64,000 bases of DNA from an uncultured Pelagibacteraceae bacterium. GTDB lineage: Bacteria; Pseudomonadota; Alphaproteobacteria; Pelagibacterales; Pelagibacteraceae. This document shows positions 340 to 12,867 of the stretch, piece after piece. The stretch spans positions 62,001-126,000 of the forward strand of contig CACJBA010000002.1 of the NCBI GenBank assembly GCA_902591535.1, given 5' to 3'. The notes beneath the pieces are model-generated. The model was not told the origin of the DNA. It did not search any database and was given only the letters and a program-made list of their open reading frames with translations. The position numbers were made by a program, and so were the translations under genes. Every line of letters starts with the position of its first letter. Within the stretch, counting starts at the first letter, position 1.

Positions 340-1464
340 TTAAAAATATTTTACCTTGATGTCTTTCATTCCTTTTTTTTCAATAATTTTTTCTCTAATT
401 TTTTTATCTCTATTTATCTTATCAAAATCTACAATTTTTATTTTATCAACCTTAATATTAGATTTTTTATTTTCATTTAGAAAGTTTTGATCAGATTTAG
501 CTATACTTTTTTCACTACAAATGAGAGTTTGCTCTAATCTCATCTCTTGAGCTTTCTCGAGTGGTATTTCTTTAAACTTTAACATGTCACCAGGTTTTGC
601 TTGTCCCAATTTCCAAAAAGCAGCTGATGGAACTGTATATGGTACTATAAATCCTCCCATACTAGGTCCATCGTTAACTAAAATAATTGGAGTTTGCCCA
701 GCAATATTAATTGCACCAATAGGATATCCTTGGTCTATAATATTTGATGGTTCGGCTCCGTGTTCTAAACCTTTATTGGTTGCTTTTTCAGTGAATGTCC
801 AATTGGGACCTTCTAATCTATATCCTGTTCTATCGCTTTTAGATTGTAGTTTCCAATTCGTATTTAAAAACATTTTATGACCATTATCATCTATCCAATC
901 ATCGTTTGGTCCTTTTACTACTTCTACTTCCCAAGTTTTATCTTTTGAAAATTTAGGAATAAATTCATTTTTAATTTTTCTTCCAATCTCTGATTTTGAT
1001 TTATTAATTTTAATTTCTTGGCCATCCTGAATAGCTTTTCCGTCTATACCTCCGACTCCAGCTTTATGAAAAGTAGATCTTGATCCAAGCCAAGGCTTGC
1101 TATCGATACCTCCTGAAAAAGCAATATAGGATCTTGCTCCTATAGTCGCAAAACTCATTTCTAATATTTGGTCCTTTTCCACCTTAATACTTTCCCAAAG
1201 AGATATAGGTTTTCCATCAATCTTTGGATCCATATTTGCCCCAGTAATTGCTATAACTGCATCATTTTCAAATTTCAGGCTTGGACCCATAAACTGACAT
1301 TCTAAAGCGGGTGCACCAGGATCATTTTGTACTAGAACGTTTGCAAGTCTAAATGACCAACTATCCATAGGACCTGATGGAGGAAAACCTTGATTTAAAG
1401 TTCCTATTCTTCCTGGATAATCTTGAACTGAAGTTTCTAAACCTTTTTTAATTACTTTGATCAT
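340..1464 (-). CDS. pxpC: PxpC/KipA-like biotin-dependent carboxyltransferase (5-oxoprolinase subunit C family) with charged C-terminal tail
   Basis: SVQDYPGRIGTLNQGFPPSGPMDSWSFRLAN, GPNDDW, SDRTGYRLEGP, DGPSMGGFIVPYTVPSAAFWKLGQAKPGD; extra tail at aa ~310-374. Confidence 0.88.
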   Translation of the reverse strand: MIKVIKKGLETSVQDYPGRIGTLNQGFPPSGPMDSWSFRLANVLVQNDPGAPALECQFMGPSLKFENDAVIAITGANMDPKIDGKPISLWESIKVEKDQILEMSFATIGARSYIAFSGGIDSKPWLGSRSTFHKAGVGGIDGKAIQDGQEIKINKSKSEIGRKIKNEFIPKFSKDKTWEVEVVKGPNDDWIDDNGHKMFLNTNWKLQSKSDRTGYRLEGPNWTFTEKATNKGLEHGAEPSNIIDQGYPIGAINIAGQTPIILVNDGPSMGGFIVPYTVPSAAFWKLGQAKPGDMLKFKEIPLEKAQEMRLEQTLICSEKSIAKSDQNFLNENKKSNIKVDKIKIVDFDKINRDKKIREKIIEKKGMKDIKVKYF

Positions 1465-1466
1465 TG

Positions 1467-3956
1467 TTAAAATCTCTTATTTGAATCTATCGTAGTTAAC
1501 CATTTTTTATAATTCTTCACAGAAAATTTTTGATAATCAACAATATTGTAGTCATAAGACCCATCTTCAATTTTATTATATACATGATCAAACTCTTCAT
1601 AACTTGTTGGAACAAATTTAACTCTATCGCCAGGTTGAAATAAACAAATATTATTTTCAAAAACTGGAAAACTTTTTTTTGTATCCCAAATAGGTACAGG
1701 AATTATTCCAAATATTTGATAACCACCGGGCAATCTATCGGGATATATACAAGTAGAAGCACCTCCCATTCCTACTGTGCCTTTAGGTGTCCATGTCCTT
1801 GGAGGATTATATTTAGGAACTGTTAATTTACATCGAGGGTCTAACGCCATCATAAATGGTAAGCCAGGCCAAAATCCAATTGCAGCAACCCAATATTCTG
1901 TTGATGAGTGAACTCTAACAAATTGTTCAGTGCTTTCTAATTCATTTAGTTCTGCAATAAGTTCTGGATCTGGCTTTTTTTTTGCAATTTTTTTGGAGTA
2001 ATCTTCAATACATTCTTGTGTCCATTTATCTAAGTAAACAGTTGGAAAAGAAAATACTCTACTATTTATTTCTATGTCATCAGTAGGCCCGAGAGACTCA
2101 ATAAGGTTAAATAATTCTTTTTTTAATTCATGAAATTTAATTTCTTCAGGTTCGTAGTGAACTATCATAGACGCAAAGCATGGAGATGTTTCATACACAC
2201 CTCTAATTTTATGGTCTTTTATCGCTTTAGCTAAATTTTGAGCTGTAAAATTAAGCTCTAAGTTCATTACATTTCCAAATTCTATTAGCATATATTTATC
2301 TCCAGCAGGCAAAAACTTTGGGGTATCATATATTTTTCCAGGAACATTATTGATCTTAGTTTTTGGAATTTCTTTAACTTCTTTTTTTGGAGAAACAATA
2401 TTTTCAAACGCTTTTAGGTCTTTTTCAGAATAGTTTTGGCCATTTAATTTTTTTGGTGCTTTTGAAATAATATTTTCAAAGGCTTTAACATCTTTTTCAG
2501 TATAGTTTTTATTCTCTGATTTTTCTTTTTTAATTTCCTTTTTTTCTTGAGTTTTAATAGATTTAACTATTTCTTCTTTAATTTCTTTTTTATCCTCATA
2601 TTTTGTAAAAATTGATAGGTTGTTTTCAATAAATTTTGTATTGAATTTAGCATCATTAAAAGAATTATTTTTTAAGACTTCAATTAAAAATTCTTTATTT
2701 GTTTTTATTCCCTCAATTTGCATGCTTTGAAGAAAATCAGTCATTTTTCTAATAACGTCTGTTCTAGAATTTCCTTTACAAATAATTTTTGCTATCATCG
2801 GATCATAGTAAAAAGAAATTTCATCTCCTTCACCTACACCAATATCAATTCTTATATCTTTAGAAACTTCAGGAAATCGTAATTTAGAAATTTTTCCAGG
2901 CGAAGGTAAAAAGTTTTTTTTGGGATCTTCGGCATAAAGTCTACATTCCATTGTATTCCCATTTTTAGAAATTTTAGATTGTGAAACTTGGTTAGAATCA
3001 AGGTTTAAAGCGTATTTTAACTGTAATTCTACCAGATCAATACCAGTTATTTCCTCTGTTACCGGGTGTTCGACTTGAATTCTAGTATTCATTTCAAGAA
3101 AATAAAATTTTTTTTGATCAATATCGTAAATAAATTCAATTGTACCAGCTCCCTCATATTTTTGGTCTGATGCAAATTTTACAGACATTTGTGCCATTTC
3201 ATTAATAATAGATTGATCAACTTTTGGCGCTGGGCTCTCTTCAATTATTTTTTGAAATCTTCTTTGAATTGAACAATCTCGTTCATAGAAATGAACCGAA
3301 TTTCTTTCTCCATAACCAAATATTTGAATTTCTATGTGTCTTGAATTTCTTATAAATTTTTCAAGGAAGATATCACTATTACCAAAAGCTTTTTTGGCTA
3401 GATTTTTTGTTTTATCAACTGCAGTTTTAAGTTCATTGAAGTTGTTGACAATCTGCATACCAATACCACCACCACCAGCACTTGCTTTGATTAATATTGG
3501 ATAACCTATTTCCATACATTTTTTTTCTAAATCACTTGATTCTATTTCGTCATTTTTAAGACCAGGGCAAATCGGTAGATTACTTTTTATCGCAAGTTCT
3601 CTTGCAATATCCTTATTACCCATTGATGTTATGTTGTTTGGTTTTGGTCCTATCCAGGTAATTCCTGAGTCCATAACGCTTTGAGCAAATTCTGCATTTT
3701 CAGATAAAAAACCATAACCTGGATGAATTGCATCAGCTTTTGAACTTAGCGCTGCATTAATTATTTTTCTTGTTGATAAATAACTTTCTTGGGCTTTCGA
3801 CTCTCCAATATGAACAGCTTCATCTGCTATTCGCACGTGTTTACTTTTTTTATCTGCATCTGAGTATACTACTATTGTATGCAAATTTAGCTTTTTACAA
3901 CTCTCAATTATTCTACAAGCTATTTCTCCTCTATTCGCAATTAATATTTTCTTCAT
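1467..3956 (-). CDS. Biotin carboxylase (AccC-like) fused to PxpB/KipI-like domain, joined by a repeat-containing linker
   Basis: N-term ILIANRGEIACRII, HPGYGFLSENAEFA, KASAGGGGIGM, EMNTRIQVEHPVTEE; C-term PxpB/KipI: GVYETSPCFASMIVHY, FWPGLPFMMALDPR, GTVGMGGASTCIYPDRLPGGYQIFG. Confidence 0.9.
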   Translation of the reverse strand: MKKILIANRGEIACRIIESCKKLNLHTIVVYSDADKKSKHVRIADEAVHIGESKAQESYLSTRKIINAALSSKADAIHPGYGFLSENAEFAQSVMDSGITWIGPKPNNITSMGNKDIARELAIKSNLPICPGLKNDEIESSDLEKKCMEIGYPILIKASAGGGGIGMQIVNNFNELKTAVDKTKNLAKKAFGNSDIFLEKFIRNSRHIEIQIFGYGERNSVHFYERDCSIQRRFQKIIEESPAPKVDQSIINEMAQMSVKFASDQKYEGAGTIEFIYDIDQKKFYFLEMNTRIQVEHPVTEEITGIDLVELQLKYALNLDSNQVSQSKISKNGNTMECRLYAEDPKKNFLPSPGKISKLRFPEVSKDIRIDIGVGEGDEISFYYDPMIAKIICKGNSRTDVIRKMTDFLQSMQIEGIKTNKEFLIEVLKNNSFNDAKFNTKFIENNLSIFTKYEDKKEIKEEIVKSIKTQEKKEIKKEKSENKNYTEKDVKAFENIISKAPKKLNGQNYSEKDLKAFENIVSPKKEVKEIPKTKINNVPGKIYDTPKFLPAGDKYMLIEFGNVMNLELNFTAQNLAKAIKDHKIRGVYETSPCFASMIVHYEPEEIKFHELKKELFNLIESLGPTDDIEINSRVFSFPTVYLDKWTQECIEDYSKKIAKKKPDPELIAELNELESTEQFVRVHSSTEYWVAAIGFWPGLPFMMALDPRCKLTVPKYNPPRTWTPKGTVGMGGASTCIYPDRLPGGYQIFGIIPVPIWDTKKSFPVFENNICLFQPGDRVKFVPTSYEEFDHVYNKIEDGSYDYNIVDYQKFSVKNYKKWLTTIDSNKRF

Positions 3957-6089: not shown

Positions 6090-8411
6090 TTACTTTACCT
6101 CATCCCATTGACTTAATTGTTTATCACGAGCAATTTTCTCTCTGTATATTGACATAAATTGCCAAACGAGAGGTGTTAAAGGTATTCCAATAATAAATAC
6201 AGCTAATATTTTATAAAAAGAATAACCTATTGAGTAAAATATTGCTGACCAAAGAGCAGCAGCAATAATTACTATATACATGTAAGGAGCAAAACGTTTG
6301 TAACTTCCCTTGTGCCCCATATTTAGAAATAAAAAATATTGAACTAAGAATACTGCTAAAATACTAAATGCTAACTGTGAATATCCAGAATTAACAGTCT
6401 CGTAGAAAAATCTTTTTGTTGCTTCATATTTTACTTGAGACAAGTCTCCTATAGACAATTCAGAAATTATTTTTGGCTGATAAAGAGATGGATCATCTGG
6501 AATAAATGTATTACCTCCAACAAAATATGTTGCTATAATTGCTAATACACCAAATCCAAATATATAGACATTTGTTAAGTTTTTAATTCTAGAATGAGCA
6601 AATGGTGCGGTTATAACAAATAGCAGCAATACAACAAGTATTACACCATATCCCTGTATTCCAAAAAAGCTACTTTCTGTGCTTTCAATTAAATTGTTAT
6701 AGGAAATTCCTTTAAGGATAATCAGAGAGAGAGCAGCAAGGAAGAACAGCATCGCTGTAGATTTAGTTCTAGCACTAAACTGAGGAAGCATCGCGACAAC
6801 AATTAGCGAAGCTAATAGCACAACTCCAGCAAAATAAATTATACTATATGTAGTTCCTGAAATTATTGCTCCGTCTGAAATATTTGAAAGATAATTTAAT
6901 TTTTCCAAGCTAAAATATTGTGGAGAAGAAGTCTCAATACTACTAACCTGATTTGACTGGATAGATATTCTTTCTGTGTCCGTTAGAAGGTCTTTTTCTT
7001 TATCTTCTGGATCAAAAATTAATCCAGCAGCAAGAATAACCACAACTATTGCAAATGTTATAGTTGACGGACTCCTGTGAACCGTTAATAAATACAGTAG
7101 TAAAGCAACACCTGCGATACCTATAATTATGTAAAATACAATGGTTCCTGGTGTTTCAGTAAGTTGCACAACTCCATGACCAGCAAGAGAACCTCCTTTG
7201 GCAGTTCCCGTTCCTGTCGTTGAACCACCTTCATCTTCTACTATAATATTTCCAGTCGCATCAATTTTTCTAACCTTTTTTCCTCTTGTATCTTTGACTT
7301 CAACTTCTTTTTTTACTTCTTGTTCAATGACAATTGGTTGATCGTAAACTTGATGAATGATAACAAAAGATCCTGCAAATGCCATTAATATAAAGAACAC
7401 CATTACTGACAATCCTTTTGTTATTCTTGTTACATAAGGAAGTATTAGACTTACTAACAAAGCTATTACTAGCACTGCTCCATAAGACAAATCAGACACA
7501 AAGCTTTGTAATCTTTCAAATTTAAATGTTACTAAAATATAGTTGATCAAATATAAATTAAGTGCTCCTAGTATTGCACCGAATGCTCCTCCACGTCCTC
7601 CTGCTAAGCTTGCTCCACCAAGGACTAAAGCAGTAATACCCAGCAATGTATATTTAGTTCCTTGTAAAGGGTCACCAGAACCAACAAGCGCGGTAAAGCA
7701 TATAGCTGATAAAGCAGCAAACAAACCTGCTATTAAATGCGCAACGATCCTAACTAAATTGATTTTGACCCCACTTGTAAAAGCTGCACGTTCATCTGCC
7801 CCCATTAATTTAAGATGACCCCAAAATGCAGTATGAGTAATTATATAAAACAAAATTGTAGCTAATATCATCAAAAGAAAGATTTCATTAAAAATAGTAA
7901 ATCCTTCACCCCATGGTATTAACCAGTCAGGTGCTATACCACCTGGTCTAGGTAAAATTACAATGTTAATACCTGCAAATGCCAAATATCCTGCTAGGGA
8001 TACAATTATTGGAGAAACTCGAACGAAACATACAATAATTGCGTAGAAAAATTGCCATATCAAACCCATTGCAAAAGCATAAATAAACCAACCTACTGGA
8101 GACTGTAAAAATCCTGCAGCATACAATTGTATACTGCTTACATTTATAAATCCCATAAAAGGACCAATAGATAAATCAACACCACCTCTTCCTGCCATGG
8201 CAATAAAAGTTAACGCATAAGTCGTTAATATTAATGGAGCTGTAAGCATTATGGCGCTACCAATACCTGACTGAGATATCAATATTGGACTTCTAATTAA
8301 CGCAAATATAAGTAATGCAAAAAAGATAAATATAGGGACCATCAAATATTTGTTTGATGATGTATCAACGCTTGATCTGAATATTTTTTTAATTTTTTCT
8401 GCTGTTTCCAT
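6090..8411 (-). CDS. Sugar-type ABC transporter permease with ~430-aa extra multi-TM C-terminal region
   Basis: N-terminal half AGRGGVDLSIGPFMGFINV, LVLGGASLAGGRGGAFGA (RbsC-like); C-terminal half has additional hydrophobic helices. Confidence 0.82.
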   Translation of the reverse strand: METAEKIKKIFRSSVDTSSNKYLMVPIFIFFALLIFALIRSPILISQSGIGSAIMLTAPLILTTYALTFIAMAGRGGVDLSIGPFMGFINVSSIQLYAAGFLQSPVGWFIYAFAMGLIWQFFYAIIVCFVRVSPIIVSLAGYLAFAGINIVILPRPGGIAPDWLIPWGEGFTIFNEIFLLMILATILFYIITHTAFWGHLKLMGADERAAFTSGVKINLVRIVAHLIAGLFAALSAICFTALVGSGDPLQGTKYTLLGITALVLGGASLAGGRGGAFGAILGALNLYLINYILVTFKFERLQSFVSDLSYGAVLVIALLVSLILPYVTRITKGLSVMVFFILMAFAGSFVIIHQVYDQPIVIEQEVKKEVEVKDTRGKKVRKIDATGNIIVEDEGGSTTGTGTAKGGSLAGHGVVQLTETPGTIVFYIIIGIAGVALLLYLLTVHRSPSTITFAIVVVILAAGLIFDPEDKEKDLLTDTERISIQSNQVSSIETSSPQYFSLEKLNYLSNISDGAIISGTTYSIIYFAGVVLLASLIVVAMLPQFSARTKSTAMLFFLAALSLIILKGISYNNLIESTESSFFGIQGYGVILVVLLLFVITAPFAHSRIKNLTNVYIFGFGVLAIIATYFVGGNTFIPDDPSLYQPKIISELSIGDLSQVKYEATKRFFYETVNSGYSQLAFSILAVFLVQYFLFLNMGHKGSYKRFAPYMYIVIIAAALWSAIFYSIGYSFYKILAVFIIGIPLTPLVWQFMSIYREKIARDKQLSQWDEVK

Positions 8412-8413
8412 AT

Positions 8414-8923
8414 TTAATCAAAATAAACAATTTTAATTTTTTCTATCCCAACTTTATTTTTAATTTTCTTATTACTTTCATTTAATTTGTTGTAATCAAT
8501 GACTTTGACTTTTTTATTTTTAGCTTCGACTTGATTTTTTTCTTGATTTTCAGTTTTTATTATTTTGTTAAACTGACTATAATCATCTTTTGAATAATTA
8601 GTTTCACTATTCTGGTTTTCATTATTATTTTTCAATTTTAAATTGTATTCTTGAAAAGTATCTAGAGTCTCAAATTTATCAAAATCTGAATTATTATAAT
8701 AATTTAACTCTTTTTTAATATTTGGCTCATTCAACAAGTCGAAATCTTCATTGGTTTTTAAAATACCATTAAAATTATTTTTATCAGTATTTGAGTATTT
8801 AACATTTTGATTTTTTTCAGATTTATTGACTTTAATATTTTTGTTAAATTTTCTAAAGTCATCTAGTTTCTGAAATTGAATTTCGTCTTCCGTATTATAG
8901 TAATTAATTTTATTTTCTTTCAT
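8414..8923 (-). CDS. Asn/Lys-rich repeat protein of unknown function (four ~34-aa repeats plus C-terminal bipartite tail motif)
   Basis: ATG overlaps the stop of the upstream ATPase gene (TAATG); repeats at aa 7-40, 41-73, 74-107, 108-138; tail KVKVIDYNK...KIKIVYFD. Confidence 0.8.
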   Translation of the reverse strand: MKENKINYYNTEDEIQFQKLDDFRKFNKNIKVNKSEKNQNVKYSNTDKNNFNGILKTNEDFDLLNEPNIKKELNYYNNSDFDKFETLDTFQEYNLKLKNNNENQNSETNYSKDDYSQFNKIIKTENQEKNQVEAKNKKVKVIDYNKLNESNKKIKNKVGIEKIKIVYFD

Positions 8924-10674
8924 TAAAATGTTTTAATTTTTATTTTTTTACTGTTGTCATTATTATTATCTTTTTCAAAATCTATTACTTTAATAATTTT
9001 ATTTTCTGCGACATTTTTATTTTCAGAGAATTTAACTTGTTTATTATTTATATCTGTATTTTTTAATGATGAAATTTTTGTCTCACCTATTCCAGCAGTC
9101 TGACCAAACATACCCTCTAATAAAGTATCTGCATTTATCTTTTCATTTTCAAAAATATCAAAAACTGTTCCATTTCTAAAAACTATAACTTTTGGACATA
9201 GGCCTATAAATTCCTCTAGTTCACTAGATAAAAAAATTACTGTATTTCCTTCTTCCACAAAGTTTCTTAAATGAACATAAAGATCTCTTTTGGTGCTAAC
9301 ATCTATTCCTCTTGCCGGATCGTTTAAAATTAAAACTTTAGGATGTTGAGCAAATGATCTTGCTATCATCACCTTTTGCTGATTCCCACCACTCAGCGAA
9401 GTAATTAAGTTATCTCTTGGGCCAGTTTTGATGCTTAACCTATCTACTTCCCAATCAAAAATTCCATTTAACTCTAGCCAATCAACAAAACCTAAGAAAC
9501 CAGCTCTGCTTGTTTTTTTATATAAAGGAACTACTAAATTTTCATAAATACTTAAGTTTGGAAGAATTCCCTCTTTTTTTCTATCGCCTGAAACAAATGA
9601 TATCCCATTTTTTTTTGCATCATCTAAAGTATTATATTTTATAAATTTTCCATTTCCGTCTGATATTTGTGTAATGCCTCCATGAGATTCTTGAACCCCA
9701 GCTAAAATTTTAACAAAGTCATCTTGTCCATTTCCGTCTAGTCCAGTTACTCCAACAATCTCTCCACGTTTAACTTCAAAATTAACGGGCTTACTTTCAG
9801 GCCAAACGACTAGATTTTCTGCTCTCATAACTACATTTTCCGTTTTTGTTTGTACTGCAACAGATTTAGATTTTTCTCCACTTTCGGCTCTTCCAGTCAT
9901 TAAGCCTATAAGATTTTTTTCGTTAAGATCTTTTTTTTCTAAAACCCCAACATCTTTTCCATCTCTCATAACCGTAGCCTTATCACTAATTCTAACCAAT
10001 TCTGCAATTCTGTGTGTTACGATAAAAACTGCTACTCCATTCTCTTTTAGCTCGCGCATTTTTTTGAATAGTCTTTCTGTTGAGTCAAAGTCTAAAGCTG
10101 CAGAAGATTCATCTAAAATTAATAATTTTGTATTTTCTCTTAGAAAGGCTCTAGCAATTGTTATCCATGCTTTTATTGGTAAAGAAAGATTAAAAGCTTG
10201 CGTATATGGGTCTACATATTCACCAACAAGATCTTCCATAATTTCTTGGGCTTTAATTACTTTTTCTCTTTGTGTTAAGTTTTTATACCAAAAATCGTCA
10301 GAACCAACGAACAGGTTATCTACTACAGATGCCTCTTCAGCAATCATAACTTCTTGAAATACTGTAGCTATACCCATGTTTCTGGCCATAACAGGCGAAG
10401 TAGGGGTCTGACCCATTACCGAAACTTTACCTTTATCTATTGGTAAAACTCCTGATAAAACTTTAGCTAGTGTACTTTTACCACAACCATTTCCTCCAAC
10501 GATTGCATGTATCTCACCAAAATTTGCACTAAAATTTACACCGTTTAATGCTTTAGTAACTCCAAAATATTTATGAACATCTTGAACGTAAATATCACCA
10601 ACTACTGCATTAGAATTATTTGACAGCGCCTCTTTTTGTGAGGCGCTGTTCATATTGTTTTTTTCTGCACTCAT
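8923..10674 (-). CDS. Sugar-type ABC transporter ATP-binding protein (two ABC domains, RbsA/MglA-like) with C-terminal tail
   Basis: Walker A GGNGCGKST; LSGGNQQKVMIARSFAQHPKVLILNDPARGIDV; C-terminal extension KIIKVIDFEK...KKIKIKTF. Confidence 0.9.
   Translation of the reverse strand: MSAEKNNMNSASQKEALSNNSNAVVGDIYVQDVHKYFGVTKALNGVNFSANFGEIHAIVGGNGCGKSTLAKVLSGVLPIDKGKVSVMGQTPTSPVMARNMGIATVFQEVMIAEEASVVDNLFVGSDDFWYKNLTQREKVIKAQEIMEDLVGEYVDPYTQAFNLSLPIKAWITIARAFLRENTKLLILDESSAALDFDSTERLFKKMRELKENGVAVFIVTHRIAELVRISDKATVMRDGKDVGVLEKKDLNEKNLIGLMTGRAESGEKSKSVAVQTKTENVVMRAENLVVWPESKPVNFEVKRGEIVGVTGLDGNGQDDFVKILAGVQESHGGITQISDGNGKFIKYNTLDDAKKNGISFVSGDRKKEGILPNLSIYENLVVPLYKKTSRAGFLGFVDWLELNGIFDWEVDRLSIKTGPRDNLITSLSGGNQQKVMIARSFAQHPKVLILNDPARGIDVSTKRDLYVHLRNFVEEGNTVIFLSSELEEFIGLCPKVIVFRNGTVFDIFENEKINADTLLEGMFGQTAGIGETKISSLKNTDINNKQVKFSENKNVAENKIIKVIDFEKDNNNDNSKKIKIKTF
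10623..10649 (-). other. 10-bp perfect inverted repeat (ACAGCGCCTC / GAGGCGCTGT, 7-nt loop) inside the 5' end of the ABC ATPase ORF
   Basis: acagcgcctc tttttgt gaggcgctgt. Confidence 0.9.
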
Positions 10675-10692
10675 ACCCTTTTTGCAAAAGTA

Positions 10693-11910
10693 TTAGTGTG
10701 AACTTATATCGTATTTTTCTGGGTCAGAAGGATTATCAAAGAACGCTTCGATATATGATCGAGGTGCCCATTTATCCATTCCTGGGTTATCCCAACCTGT
10801 AGAATTTCTATCACAATCTTCATTTAAGATTTGTTTAATTTCATCGAAATTCTTAGTTGCCGGACCAACCAGTATTGATTGGATTCTAGGACCTTGACCT
10901 TGAAGTGTTCTCATCATTACTTCCATTCCTAACTCGATTTCATCTCCTGGAGGCCATGCATATATTGCTTCATCAATATATCCTGGGTTTTGTCTCCAAT
11001 AACAAAGTGCACCCAATTCACCTCCTAAAGCAATTGGTGGAATAGGGTCTCTTCCAGATTGAAGTAATGCTTGAAGAGTTCCTGTTTCTCCAGATGATTG
11101 AACTGCAATACCATCAACTTTTTTAGTATTAGTTGATAGCCATTGTGAAAGTTCTTTCTGAGCAATTTGTGAAGTCCAGTTGTGCGCTAATTGTCCAACA
11201 ACATTTACATCTGGGTACTCTGCTAAAGCAGCTAATACACCTTTGTTTTGTTGGTCAGAAGCTGAATAGCCTGGAATTCCTTCCATTACTATAACATTCC
11301 CTTTTTCACCAATTAACTCAGCCATCCAAGCACCCACATAATAACCAACTAATCTATAATTTACAGATGTGTTGATTGAATAAGGTGATGTTGTAAAGCC
11401 AGTAAATGAAAGTGTAGGTATACCTTTTTCCCAACCATATTTAATGGTTGTGTTAAGAGCAGTAATGTTTGAACAACAAATAATGATAGCATCAACTTTT
11501 CCTCCATCTATCATTTGTCTCATTTGTTGAATTTGAAGTGAATCGTCTAAGTTTGATTGAGTAATGACTATTTCATCAACCATTCCAAGAGCTTTCCATT
11601 TCGGATAAACAACTTCCATTAATCTTTCCATGGCACCTTTACGCCATGTGTTACCTGCATAAGTACTAGCATAACCAATAGTCCATGGTGGTTTTCTAGG
11701 ACTTTTCCAGTTTCTCATGACAGCTTCCCCTAAAGGCTGATCACTATCCATGAAATCCATGTTATATACATAATCTCTCATATCTTGAGGCACTTTACTT
11801 AGACATTCGGTACAAACTTCTTGCGACGACGCCGTAGAAAAAATACCCATAAACCATGAGAAGAGAATGACATAAATATATTTTCTTATTTTCATAGTTT
11901 CTCCTTTCAA
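10693..11910 (-). CDS. Periplasmic substrate-binding protein, sugar ABC type (Peripla_BP_4/RbsB-like)
   Basis: Signal peptide; GGKVDAIIICCSN, GNVIVMEGIPGYSASDQQNKG; first gene of the transporter operon. Confidence 0.85.
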   Translation of the reverse strand: MKGETMKIRKYIYVILFSWFMGIFSTASSQEVCTECLSKVPQDMRDYVYNMDFMDSDQPLGEAVMRNWKSPRKPPWTIGYASTYAGNTWRKGAMERLMEVVYPKWKALGMVDEIVITQSNLDDSLQIQQMRQMIDGGKVDAIIICCSNITALNTTIKYGWEKGIPTLSFTGFTTSPYSINTSVNYRLVGYYVGAWMAELIGEKGNVIVMEGIPGYSASDQQNKGVLAALAEYPDVNVVGQLAHNWTSQIAQKELSQWLSTNTKKVDGIAVQSSGETGTLQALLQSGRDPIPPIALGGELGALCYWRQNPGYIDEAIYAWPPGDEIELGMEVMMRTLQGQGPRIQSILVGPATKNFDEIKQILNEDCDRNSTGWDNPGMDKWAPRSYIEAFFDNPSDPEKYDISSH

Positions 11911-12097
11911 ATTTATTTATCTTCTCACTTATAAATTAAGATATCCAGGATTTATTAATTTCTAGTTTTTATATATAAATTTTATAACTAAAATTTTTGT
12001 TTGTTTTTAACAATAAAAATATACTAAGTTTAATGATAAACTATTTAATAATATTTTCTAATTAGAGTTGTATCTATAGAATAATATTAATTTTTTT

Positions 12098-12409
12098 ATG
12101 AAAAAATATTTTTTTAGCTTAATAATTTTTTTATCTTTTTTTTCAGTTTCGTTTGCAGATTACAAATTAGAACCAACAAATTGTACTGCAAAGAAAAAAG
12201 ATAATTGTGGAGCTTATCTTTATAATATTAAAACTGGTTCAACTTTTTTTTGTACTTCAGATAAGTGTACAGAAATTTTAGAAGCTTTGGAGGGAGAAGT
12301 TGAAGTGGAAGCATCAGGAAAAAAAGAATCAAAAAAATCTAAAATTCCTAAATTTGGAAAAAAGGAAAAGAAAAAATCTAAAATTCCAAAATTTAAAAAA
12401 TCAAATTAA
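12098..12409 (+). CDS. Small secreted protein with duplicated polycationic C-terminus (KKSKIPKF repeats)
   Basis: Signal peptide MKKYFFSLIIFLSFFSVSFA; 4 Cys; repeat KKSKIPKFGKKEKKKSKIPKFKK. Confidence 0.7.
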   Translation: MKKYFFSLIIFLSFFSVSFADYKLEPTNCTAKKKDNCGAYLYNIKTGSTFFCTSDKCTEILEALEGEVEVEASGKKESKKSKIPKFGKKEKKKSKIPKFKKSN

Positions 12410-12867
12410 TTATTTTTTTTAGTTTCAGAAATAGTTGTTTCAATAGCAGCTCTGATCTCGTTACAAAAATTTAAATCATCACCAATGAAGGTCCCTTTAA
12501 AGAAACTTTTATTTATAACACCATTAACTCTCATAAAATCCATATAATCCTTGGTTAAGGTATCTACATCGAAAAAATATTTTTTTTCAGCATCTTGTTG
12601 TGAAATATTATCGATCTTCATTAAAACTAGCACACCAAAAGGATATAAATAATTTGCTGATTTATAAAATTCTTCTGCTAAATCTTTATGTTCAGTTTTG
12701 ATTAATTCTGTTACAGCAGAATTTATAGATACGCATCCTTTTATTATCTTATACGTTAATTTATCATCTTCTAGTATCTCTTGTAAATTGTAGAAACCTA
12801 ATCTTTCTATTTTTTCAGCTGATAATGGGGTGGTTAATAAAAAAAAGATAATTAATATTTTTCTCAT
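12406..12867 (-). CDS. Putative secreted protein, unknown function
   Basis: Signal peptide MRKILIIFFLLTTPLSA; stop codon overlaps the convergent gene stop. Confidence 0.7.
   Translation of the reverse strand: MRKILIIFFLLTTPLSAEKIERLGFYNLQEILEDDKLTYKIIKGCVSINSAVTELIKTEHKDLAEEFYKSANYLYPFGVLVLMKIDNISQQDAEKKYFFDVDTLTKDYMDFMRVNGVINKSFFKGTFIGDDLNFCNEIRAAIETTISETKKNN

Follow-up and report, generated by a model that had tools for sequence, protein, structure and literature searches.

A spaced motif of 15 residues is present in two copies in the linker that joins the biotin carboxylase (BC) and PxpB domains of a fusion protein and in four copies in a disordered protein of 169 amino acids (the 169-aa protein) encoded in the same operon, and a separate motif is found at the C-terminal tails of defined operon proteins, namely the importer ATPase, the 169-aa protein and PxpC. 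Both the motif common to two operon proteins and the separate set of tails had been put forward in the original prediction and stood up to the analysis, while the recent duplication that it had also proposed for the linker copies did not. The reading that we favour, with a probability of roughly 0.6, is that the motif acts as a docking helix and that helix and tail would form a two-tag code by which the carboxylase is tethered to the importer, the 169-aa protein serving as the bridging scaffold.

The window, that is, the whole stretch of 64,000 nucleotides analysed, comes from an uncultured marine SAR11 bacterium and carries on its minus strand an operon with the order periplasmic binding protein, ATPase, 169-aa protein, long permease, second permease, PxpA, BC-PxpB, PxpC and biotin carrier. 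PxpB and PxpC score below the NCBIfam equivalog cut-offs, so that the enzyme domains do not fix the substrate. The fusion protein, its linker and the PxpC gene map as follows:

340-1464, minus strand: PxpC-like CT_A_B subunit with a C-terminal tail
1467-3956, minus strand: BC-linker-PxpB fusion protein of 829 aa (Biotin_carb_N / CPSase_L_D2 / Biotin_carb_C / CT_C_D)
2337-2612, minus strand: disordered linker, residues 449-540, between the biotin carboxylase and PxpB domains
2463-2507, minus strand: linker motif copy 1, NYTEKDVKAFENIIS, fusion residues 484-498
2391-2435, minus strand: linker motif copy 2, NYSEKDLKAFENIVS, fusion residues 508-522

The Pfam domains of the fusion stop at residue 444 and resume at residue 547, and in orthologs the linker measures about 79-92 aa. 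Its composition classes it as disordered by a charge-hydropathy rule, a call which carries little weight because roughly half of the AT-rich proteome is flagged in the same way; a helix is predicted for each motif, with low overall confidence. At the DNA level, the direct repeat between 2392-2437 and 2464-2509 is exactly as claimed, with a period of 72 bp and 6 mismatches in 46 positions. A DNA- or RNA-level cause of this repeat was ruled out, since the codons for Y, D, F and I vary and the residues do not, which indicates that selection acts on the protein. The two copies cannot be of recent origin, as both are present, with identical spacing, in 17/17 aligned Pelagibacterales fusions and differ within other species by up to 18 of 45 bases. 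The duplication thus predates the group and the copies are ancestral; their low divergence here is, on this comparison, lineage-specific.

The gene of the 169-aa protein lies directly downstream of the ATPase gene:

8923-10674, minus strand: RbsA/YtfR-type ABC importer ATPase with a C-terminal tail
8414-8923, minus strand: 169-aa disordered 'scaffold' protein with four motif copies and a tail; start ATG and ATPase stop codon overlap (TAATG)
8858-8902, minus strand: scaffold motif 1, YYNTEDEIQFQKLDD; AF2 helix 11-32, pLDDT 86 over residues 11-20
8756-8800, minus strand: scaffold motif 2, KYSNTDKNNFNGILK; AF2 helix 45-54
8657-8701, minus strand: scaffold motif 3, YYNNSDFDKFETLDT; AF2 helix 78-87
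8555-8599, minus strand: scaffold motif 4, NYSKDDYSQFNKIIK; AF2 helix 112-121

The four copies start at residues 8, 42, 75 and 109. The shared spaced core that had been described for the two proteins is indeed present, but its pattern needs a small change: because the quoted copy KYSNTDKNNFNGILK ends in I-L, the core is better written as Y-x3-D-x3-F-x2-[IL]. Following 20,000 shuffles of each sequence, the linker gave on average 0.001 motif matches and never 2, and the 169-aa protein gave 0.005 and never 4. The searches of Pfam, NCBIfam and PDB returned no relative of the 169-aa protein; among its 22 orthologs, the matches were weak and confined to single members. A nucleic-acid or known-domain explanation of this protein was also considered, and these family searches matched none.

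The specificity of the motif was assessed on 1.086 Mb of the 1.146 Mb genome (about 95%), corresponding to 351,220 aa. Specifically, the strict pattern Y[ST]xxDxxxF[END]x[ILM][IVLM] gave 4 matches, all within the BC-PxpB linker protein and the 169-aa protein, and the loose pattern Yx3Dx3Fx2[ILVM] gave 14, of which six belong to the same two proteins and the other eight occur singly elsewhere. When a position-specific model was trained on the 169-aa-protein copies alone, which avoids circularity, linker copies 1 and 2 ranked 5th and 6th in the proteome, directly behind the four training copies. Copy 1 stands clear (21.6 bits; 20.1 bits with 82 training copies). The margin of copy 2 over the best unrelated window is narrow, with 17.8 vs 17.6 bits (0.2 bit), or 16.8 vs 15.9 bits (0.9 bit) with 82 training copies. 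The reverse model, built on four linker copies from two distant orthologs, found the linker and missed the 169-aa-protein copies in the proteome, pointing to the linker copies as a specialised subset. Proteome scan, model ranking and shuffles therefore all speak against the motif being equally frequent in unrelated proteins.

When 85,462 genomes were scanned for relatives of the 169-aa protein, 30 loci were obtained, all but one of which are labelled Pelagibacteraceae, Pelagibacterales, Pelagibacter or alphaproteobacterium. By regular expression, nearly all these 169-aa proteins hold four motif copies (L096 has three), and the fusion linkers (23/23) hold exactly two. The expected conservation in linker orthologs was borne out, Y, D, F and I being invariant in 16/16 distinct Pelagibacterales linkers. 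In these non-redundant fusions (n=16), the entropy is 0.000 at the eight core positions, Y485, D489, F493 and I496 of copy 1 and Y509, D513, F517 and I520 of copy 2, vs a mean of 1.34 bits in the other linker columns. None of 20,000 random draws of eight linker columns reached the conservation of the motif core, a figure that is not a true probability because the sequences are related and were treated as independent. The 16 core residues of the 169-aa protein show 0.07 bits vs 1.84 bits elsewhere, and across 22 aligned proteins, down to 28% identity, none of the four copies shows a change at Y, D or F. In addition, the linker copies are spaced by exactly 24 aa in 17/17 Pelagibacterales fusions, with a total linker length that varies, and an invariant proline, P501, lies between them; fixed spacing and proline suggest that the two linker motifs form one bivalent unit.

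With these data, the probability that the shared motif arose by chance or merely reflects the composition of AT-rich disordered proteins becomes practically nil. Such a coincidence could account for the eight unrelated matches of the loose pattern and would fit a proteome half of which is flagged by the charge-hydropathy rule, but not the absence of equivalent matches in 20,000 shuffles, the restriction of the strict pattern to two proteins or its conservation across lineages, and for practical purposes the conservation data refute a chance origin.

Three loci of the collection deserve a separate comment. L178 carries an F to L change in the first linker copy, which counts against the favoured reading. 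Together with L179 (G738) it belongs to one bin, probably a mixed one, in which a BC-PxpB fusion of the Pelagibacterales type occurs along with a PxpB/ATPase pair of the HIMB59 type. L090 (PAKE01000017.1), titled Flavobacteriales bacterium SAT77, contains a full Pelagibacterales-type FArhodopsin-cluster importer/Pxp operon, probably through an error of binning or labelling.

In helix-capping grammar, the N' residue and a hydrophobic residue at N4 form a staple, and an S/T/N cap with D at N3 forms a capping box. The motif fits this scheme, as an autonomous helix would, with Y at N', S/T/N at the cap, D at N3, a frequently hydrophobic N4, and F and I/L on one face. The repeated motif would then be a short N-capped docking helix, with a tyrosine/hydrophobic staple around an S/T-x-x-D capping box and with F and I/L offering one hydrophobic face. 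In AF2 models of the 169-aa protein and of the fusion, all of low confidence, a helix begins exactly two residues past every motif tyrosine, the position expected from a staple combined with a capping box. The model of the 169-aa protein has a mean pLDDT of 60 and shows short strands in the tail; in the fusion, low-confidence helices span residues 487-498 (copy 1) and 511-521 (copy 2), and the model of the whole 829-aa protein (17 sequences, pLDDT 41) is too poor to reveal whether the linker docks on BC or PxpB. As overall confidence is low, we take these helices, which do not bear on the choice of partner, as supporting evidence only.

The operon belongs to a larger cluster. On L058, a rhodopsin ORF (9736-10440, 234 aa), about 10 kb beyond the window start, and a flotillin-like ORF (10454-12436, 660 aa) lie on the same strand with a 13-nt gap; both (L058:9736-12436 = C2:49736-52436, outside the window) were identified from their sequence and from the published layout. 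The window thus represents the importer/Pxp half of the cluster, and the rhodopsin/flotillin half is outside it. Read by eye, the rhodopsin of this genome (...IDWLLTFPLTILT...) has a DTT triad; the published account of the rhodopsins of the FArhodopsin (FAR) cluster assigns DTT to Pelagibacterales and DNI to HIMB59 (PMC10308929). Judging by gene content, the locus is this FAR cluster, which places a rhodopsin beside flotillin, importer and Pxp/biotin carboxylase genes and has been described as membrane-microdomain related (PMC10308929). One of our loci, L102, derives from SAG AG-390-L03, the reference genome in a figure of the same paper. Unlike our analysis, its description of the cluster does not include the disordered repeat protein, the linker motif or the tails, as far as the main text goes, in which the words 'disordered' and 'repeat' do not occur. 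A literature search for Pelagibacter together with disordered linear motifs found none.

A side observation concerns the first permease (window 6090-8411), which at 773 aa is far longer than an ordinary RbsC-type permease; Pfam covers its residues 54-317 and the rest is without a family.

The second tag was located at three C-termini:

8926-9000, minus strand: tail of the ATPase, KIIKVIDFEKD...KKIKIKTF, also on HIMB59-type ATPases
8417-8515, minus strand: tail of the 169-aa protein, KKVKVIDYNKL...EKIKIVYFD
343-447, minus strand: tail of PxpC, DKIKIVDFDKI...KDIKVKYF, absent from HIMB59-type and outgroup PxpC

The tail is bipartite and strand-like, of the form [KR]IK[IV][IV][DN][FY]... K[IM]K[IV]xxF, and in the 169-aa protein it is the most conserved region apart from the motifs. 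In the proteome, the models of the two tail halves agree on their three best matches, which are PxpC, the ATPase and the 169-aa protein. At 36 loci, comprising FAR clusters with their flanking regions, tails were counted on 33 169-aa proteins, 29 ATPases and 21 PxpC proteins, and no other protein of these loci had a tail above the threshold, below which the more divergent tail of the HIMB59-type BC falls. The two tags co-occur in every complete tagged operon examined, a pattern that direct pairing of tail and helix would fit, as would a common receptor or the bundling of helices.

According to the reading that we favour, docking helix and bipartite strand-like tail would together constitute a two-tag assembly code in the FAR cluster. 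This code would tether the biotin carboxylase / PxpB-PxpC enzyme of the cytosol to the importer on its cytoplasmic face, and tethering would allow the imported substrate to be handed to the enzyme. The 169-aa protein, with its four helices and its tail, might act as a multivalent bridge contacting the ATPase (through its tail), PxpC (through its tail) and PxpB (through the two linker helices). The conservation of the tags in otherwise variable disordered regions and their move between proteins in a related lineage suggest that they physically assemble importer and carboxylase into one complex. What the sequences show is the presence of the motifs, how specific and how conserved they are, and that they are redistributed in a second lineage; binding to partners, the resulting importer-enzyme complex and the choice of direct partner are inferred. 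As to the binding mode, the data would fit a tail that pairs with the motif, motifs that bundle with one another, or a separate receptor. We regard as doubtful a fully portable code, in which the strand-like tail would bind the capped helix directly, any tailed protein could dock on any helix-bearing protein and the complex would be rewired by moving tags between subunits.

The genome G630, from another order of the same class, also carries a FAR cluster, and its rhodopsin (...IDWFLNFPMLVLI...) has a DNI triad when read by eye; since this is the triad reported for HIMB59 in the published account (PMC10308929), we consider G630 to be HIMB59-type. Here BC (500 aa) and PxpB (420 aa) are encoded separately. 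A disordered extension at the N-terminus of PxpB bears two motifs of the form Y...[DE]...F..[ILM] along with a single degenerate copy, and the C-terminal end of BC, RIKIVETDKL...GGIKVVYFD, resembles the tail of the 169-aa protein. The ATPase keeps its tail and PxpC is without one; no separate gene for a 169-aa protein was seen within the stretch read. The first two motifs are present in 30/30 distinct HIMB59-type PxpB extensions, down to 56-67% overall identity. The model of Pelagibacterales 169-aa proteins places at least one copy above the 99% level of shuffled extensions in 7/7 HIMB59-type representatives, the second copy often being under that level. That both tags are placed on other proteins in the HIMB59-type cluster provides strong independent support for the putative tag system, of which there are, on these gene arrangements, two wiring schemes: the Pelagibacterales BC-PxpB fusion with a separate 169-aa protein, and the HIMB59-type genes for a tailed BC and a helix-bearing PxpB. 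In the outgroup operon of G377, BC, PxpB, PxpC and carrier are separate genes and BC, PxpB and PxpC have neither tag, which likely shows the starting state.

With regard to gene orientation, in the HIMB59-type FAR clusters L137/L138 and L171-L182 the genes for PxpA, BC and the permeases are divergently oriented, and the tags are on the PxpB N-terminal extension, the BC C-terminus and the ATPase.

A third arrangement was found in G737, from another family of the order of G630, with a BC-PxpB fusion whose linker lacks the motif, a tagged disordered protein of 207 aa, and tagged ATPase and PxpC:

L180:12932-15328: BC-PxpB fusion of G737
L180:19256-19876: 207-aa protein of G737

As the fusion is without the motif and the other proteins are tagged, the linker motif is dispensable in G737. 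This arrangement bears on two alternatives. The first is that the 169-aa-protein and linker copies would self-associate as amphipathic-helix bundles, clustering the carboxylase with the 169-aa protein. The occurrence of the same helix in both proteins, in several copies and with a fixed 24-aa spacing in the linker, is in line with such bundles, and encapsulation peptides have been reported as trimeric bundles that co-assemble cargo (PMC12339742); we nevertheless consider self-association rather unlikely, given that G737 carries the motif on its 169-aa-type protein only and that the constant co-occurrence of the tail would be left unexplained. The second, which we judge very improbable, is that the linker or the PxpB extension acquired a copy of a repeat domain from the 169-aa protein and that this copy persists as an inherited passenger, now a mere flexible spacer with helical propensity. 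Linkers often hold helical K/E/N-rich sequence, and the G737 fusion does exist without the motif; however, a spacer would account neither for zero entropy at eight core positions and exact spacing in a fast-changing linker nor for the motif in PxpB of the HIMB59 type, which is not fused, so that there are no domains to be joined.

Some clusters comprise an importer and a 169-aa protein with both tags, and no FAR-type PxpB was found in the corresponding (incomplete) genome. On this basis the tags cannot exist only for the carboxylase, and would belong first to the importer, with the carboxylase as an added client. That tagged operons without Pxp still retain all tags is also what one would expect if a separate receptor of the FAR cluster, for example flotillin or the cytosolic parts of the permeases, read both tags and the proteins met at a membrane platform. 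This is a possible, though not a probable, alternative: the locus lies near FArhodopsin and flotillin and the published cluster is described as related to membrane microdomains (PMC10308929), but flotillins and permeases of FAR clusters carry neither tag, a reader of the motif among FAR-cluster proteins is only putative, and flotillin relatives are widespread in the phylum. In the sample used for a phylum-wide flotillin search, the Pseudothioglobus FAR cluster was not clearly found.

The two-tag code that we propose resembles some known assembly systems. In the Chlamydomonas pyrenoid, the short Rubisco-binding motif of the disordered repeat protein EPYC1 recurs on other proteins of the assembly and is thought to gather them (PMC10473226). 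Here, too, a motif is repeated in a disordered protein and found on client proteins, a resemblance for which homology is not claimed; EPYC1 is eukaryotic and directed to Rubisco, whereas the present motif is a different one, set among an ABC importer and a carboxylase, with a second, strand-like tail tag. Encapsulation peptides of bacterial microcompartments (PMC12339742, PMC11157265) are short helices that are attached to enzymes via disordered linkers and act in co-assembly, an arrangement to which the predicted helices of the putatively disordered linker may correspond. Here, some copies separate two enzyme domains and others belong to a repeat protein, in the neighbourhood of an importer. 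The shell family PF00936 had no match in this genome (79% complete), with positive controls. The enzyme domains are those of the PxpABC 5-oxoprolinase with biotin carboxylase/carrier subunits, except that here BC and PxpB form one protein, joined by a tagged linker, and PxpC is tailed, whereas the genes of the outgroup G377 are separate and untagged.

Few cases appear to be documented in bacteria in which an ABC importer is directly and physically coupled to the cytosolic enzyme acting on the imported substrate. The sequence record predicts such a coupling, names the residues concerned (Y, D, F, I/L and the tail) and offers two natural wirings. In addition, the tags make part of the function of the FAR cluster testable by short peptides and recombinant proteins, without cultivation of SAR11. 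If helix and tail do pair directly, they would represent a native bacterial docking pair coupling nutrient uptake to the first catabolic enzyme, and such a pair could serve as a small new tool for enzyme scaffolding.

Finally, a small protein encoded on the plus strand (window 12098-12409) seems to carry a signal peptide and repeats the sequence KKSKIPKF in a C-terminus rich in lysine. Its orthologs beside the importer (L014, L117, L180) keep SKIPK-type repeats in varying number, and this protein is possibly another repeat-type tag, on the periplasmic side.
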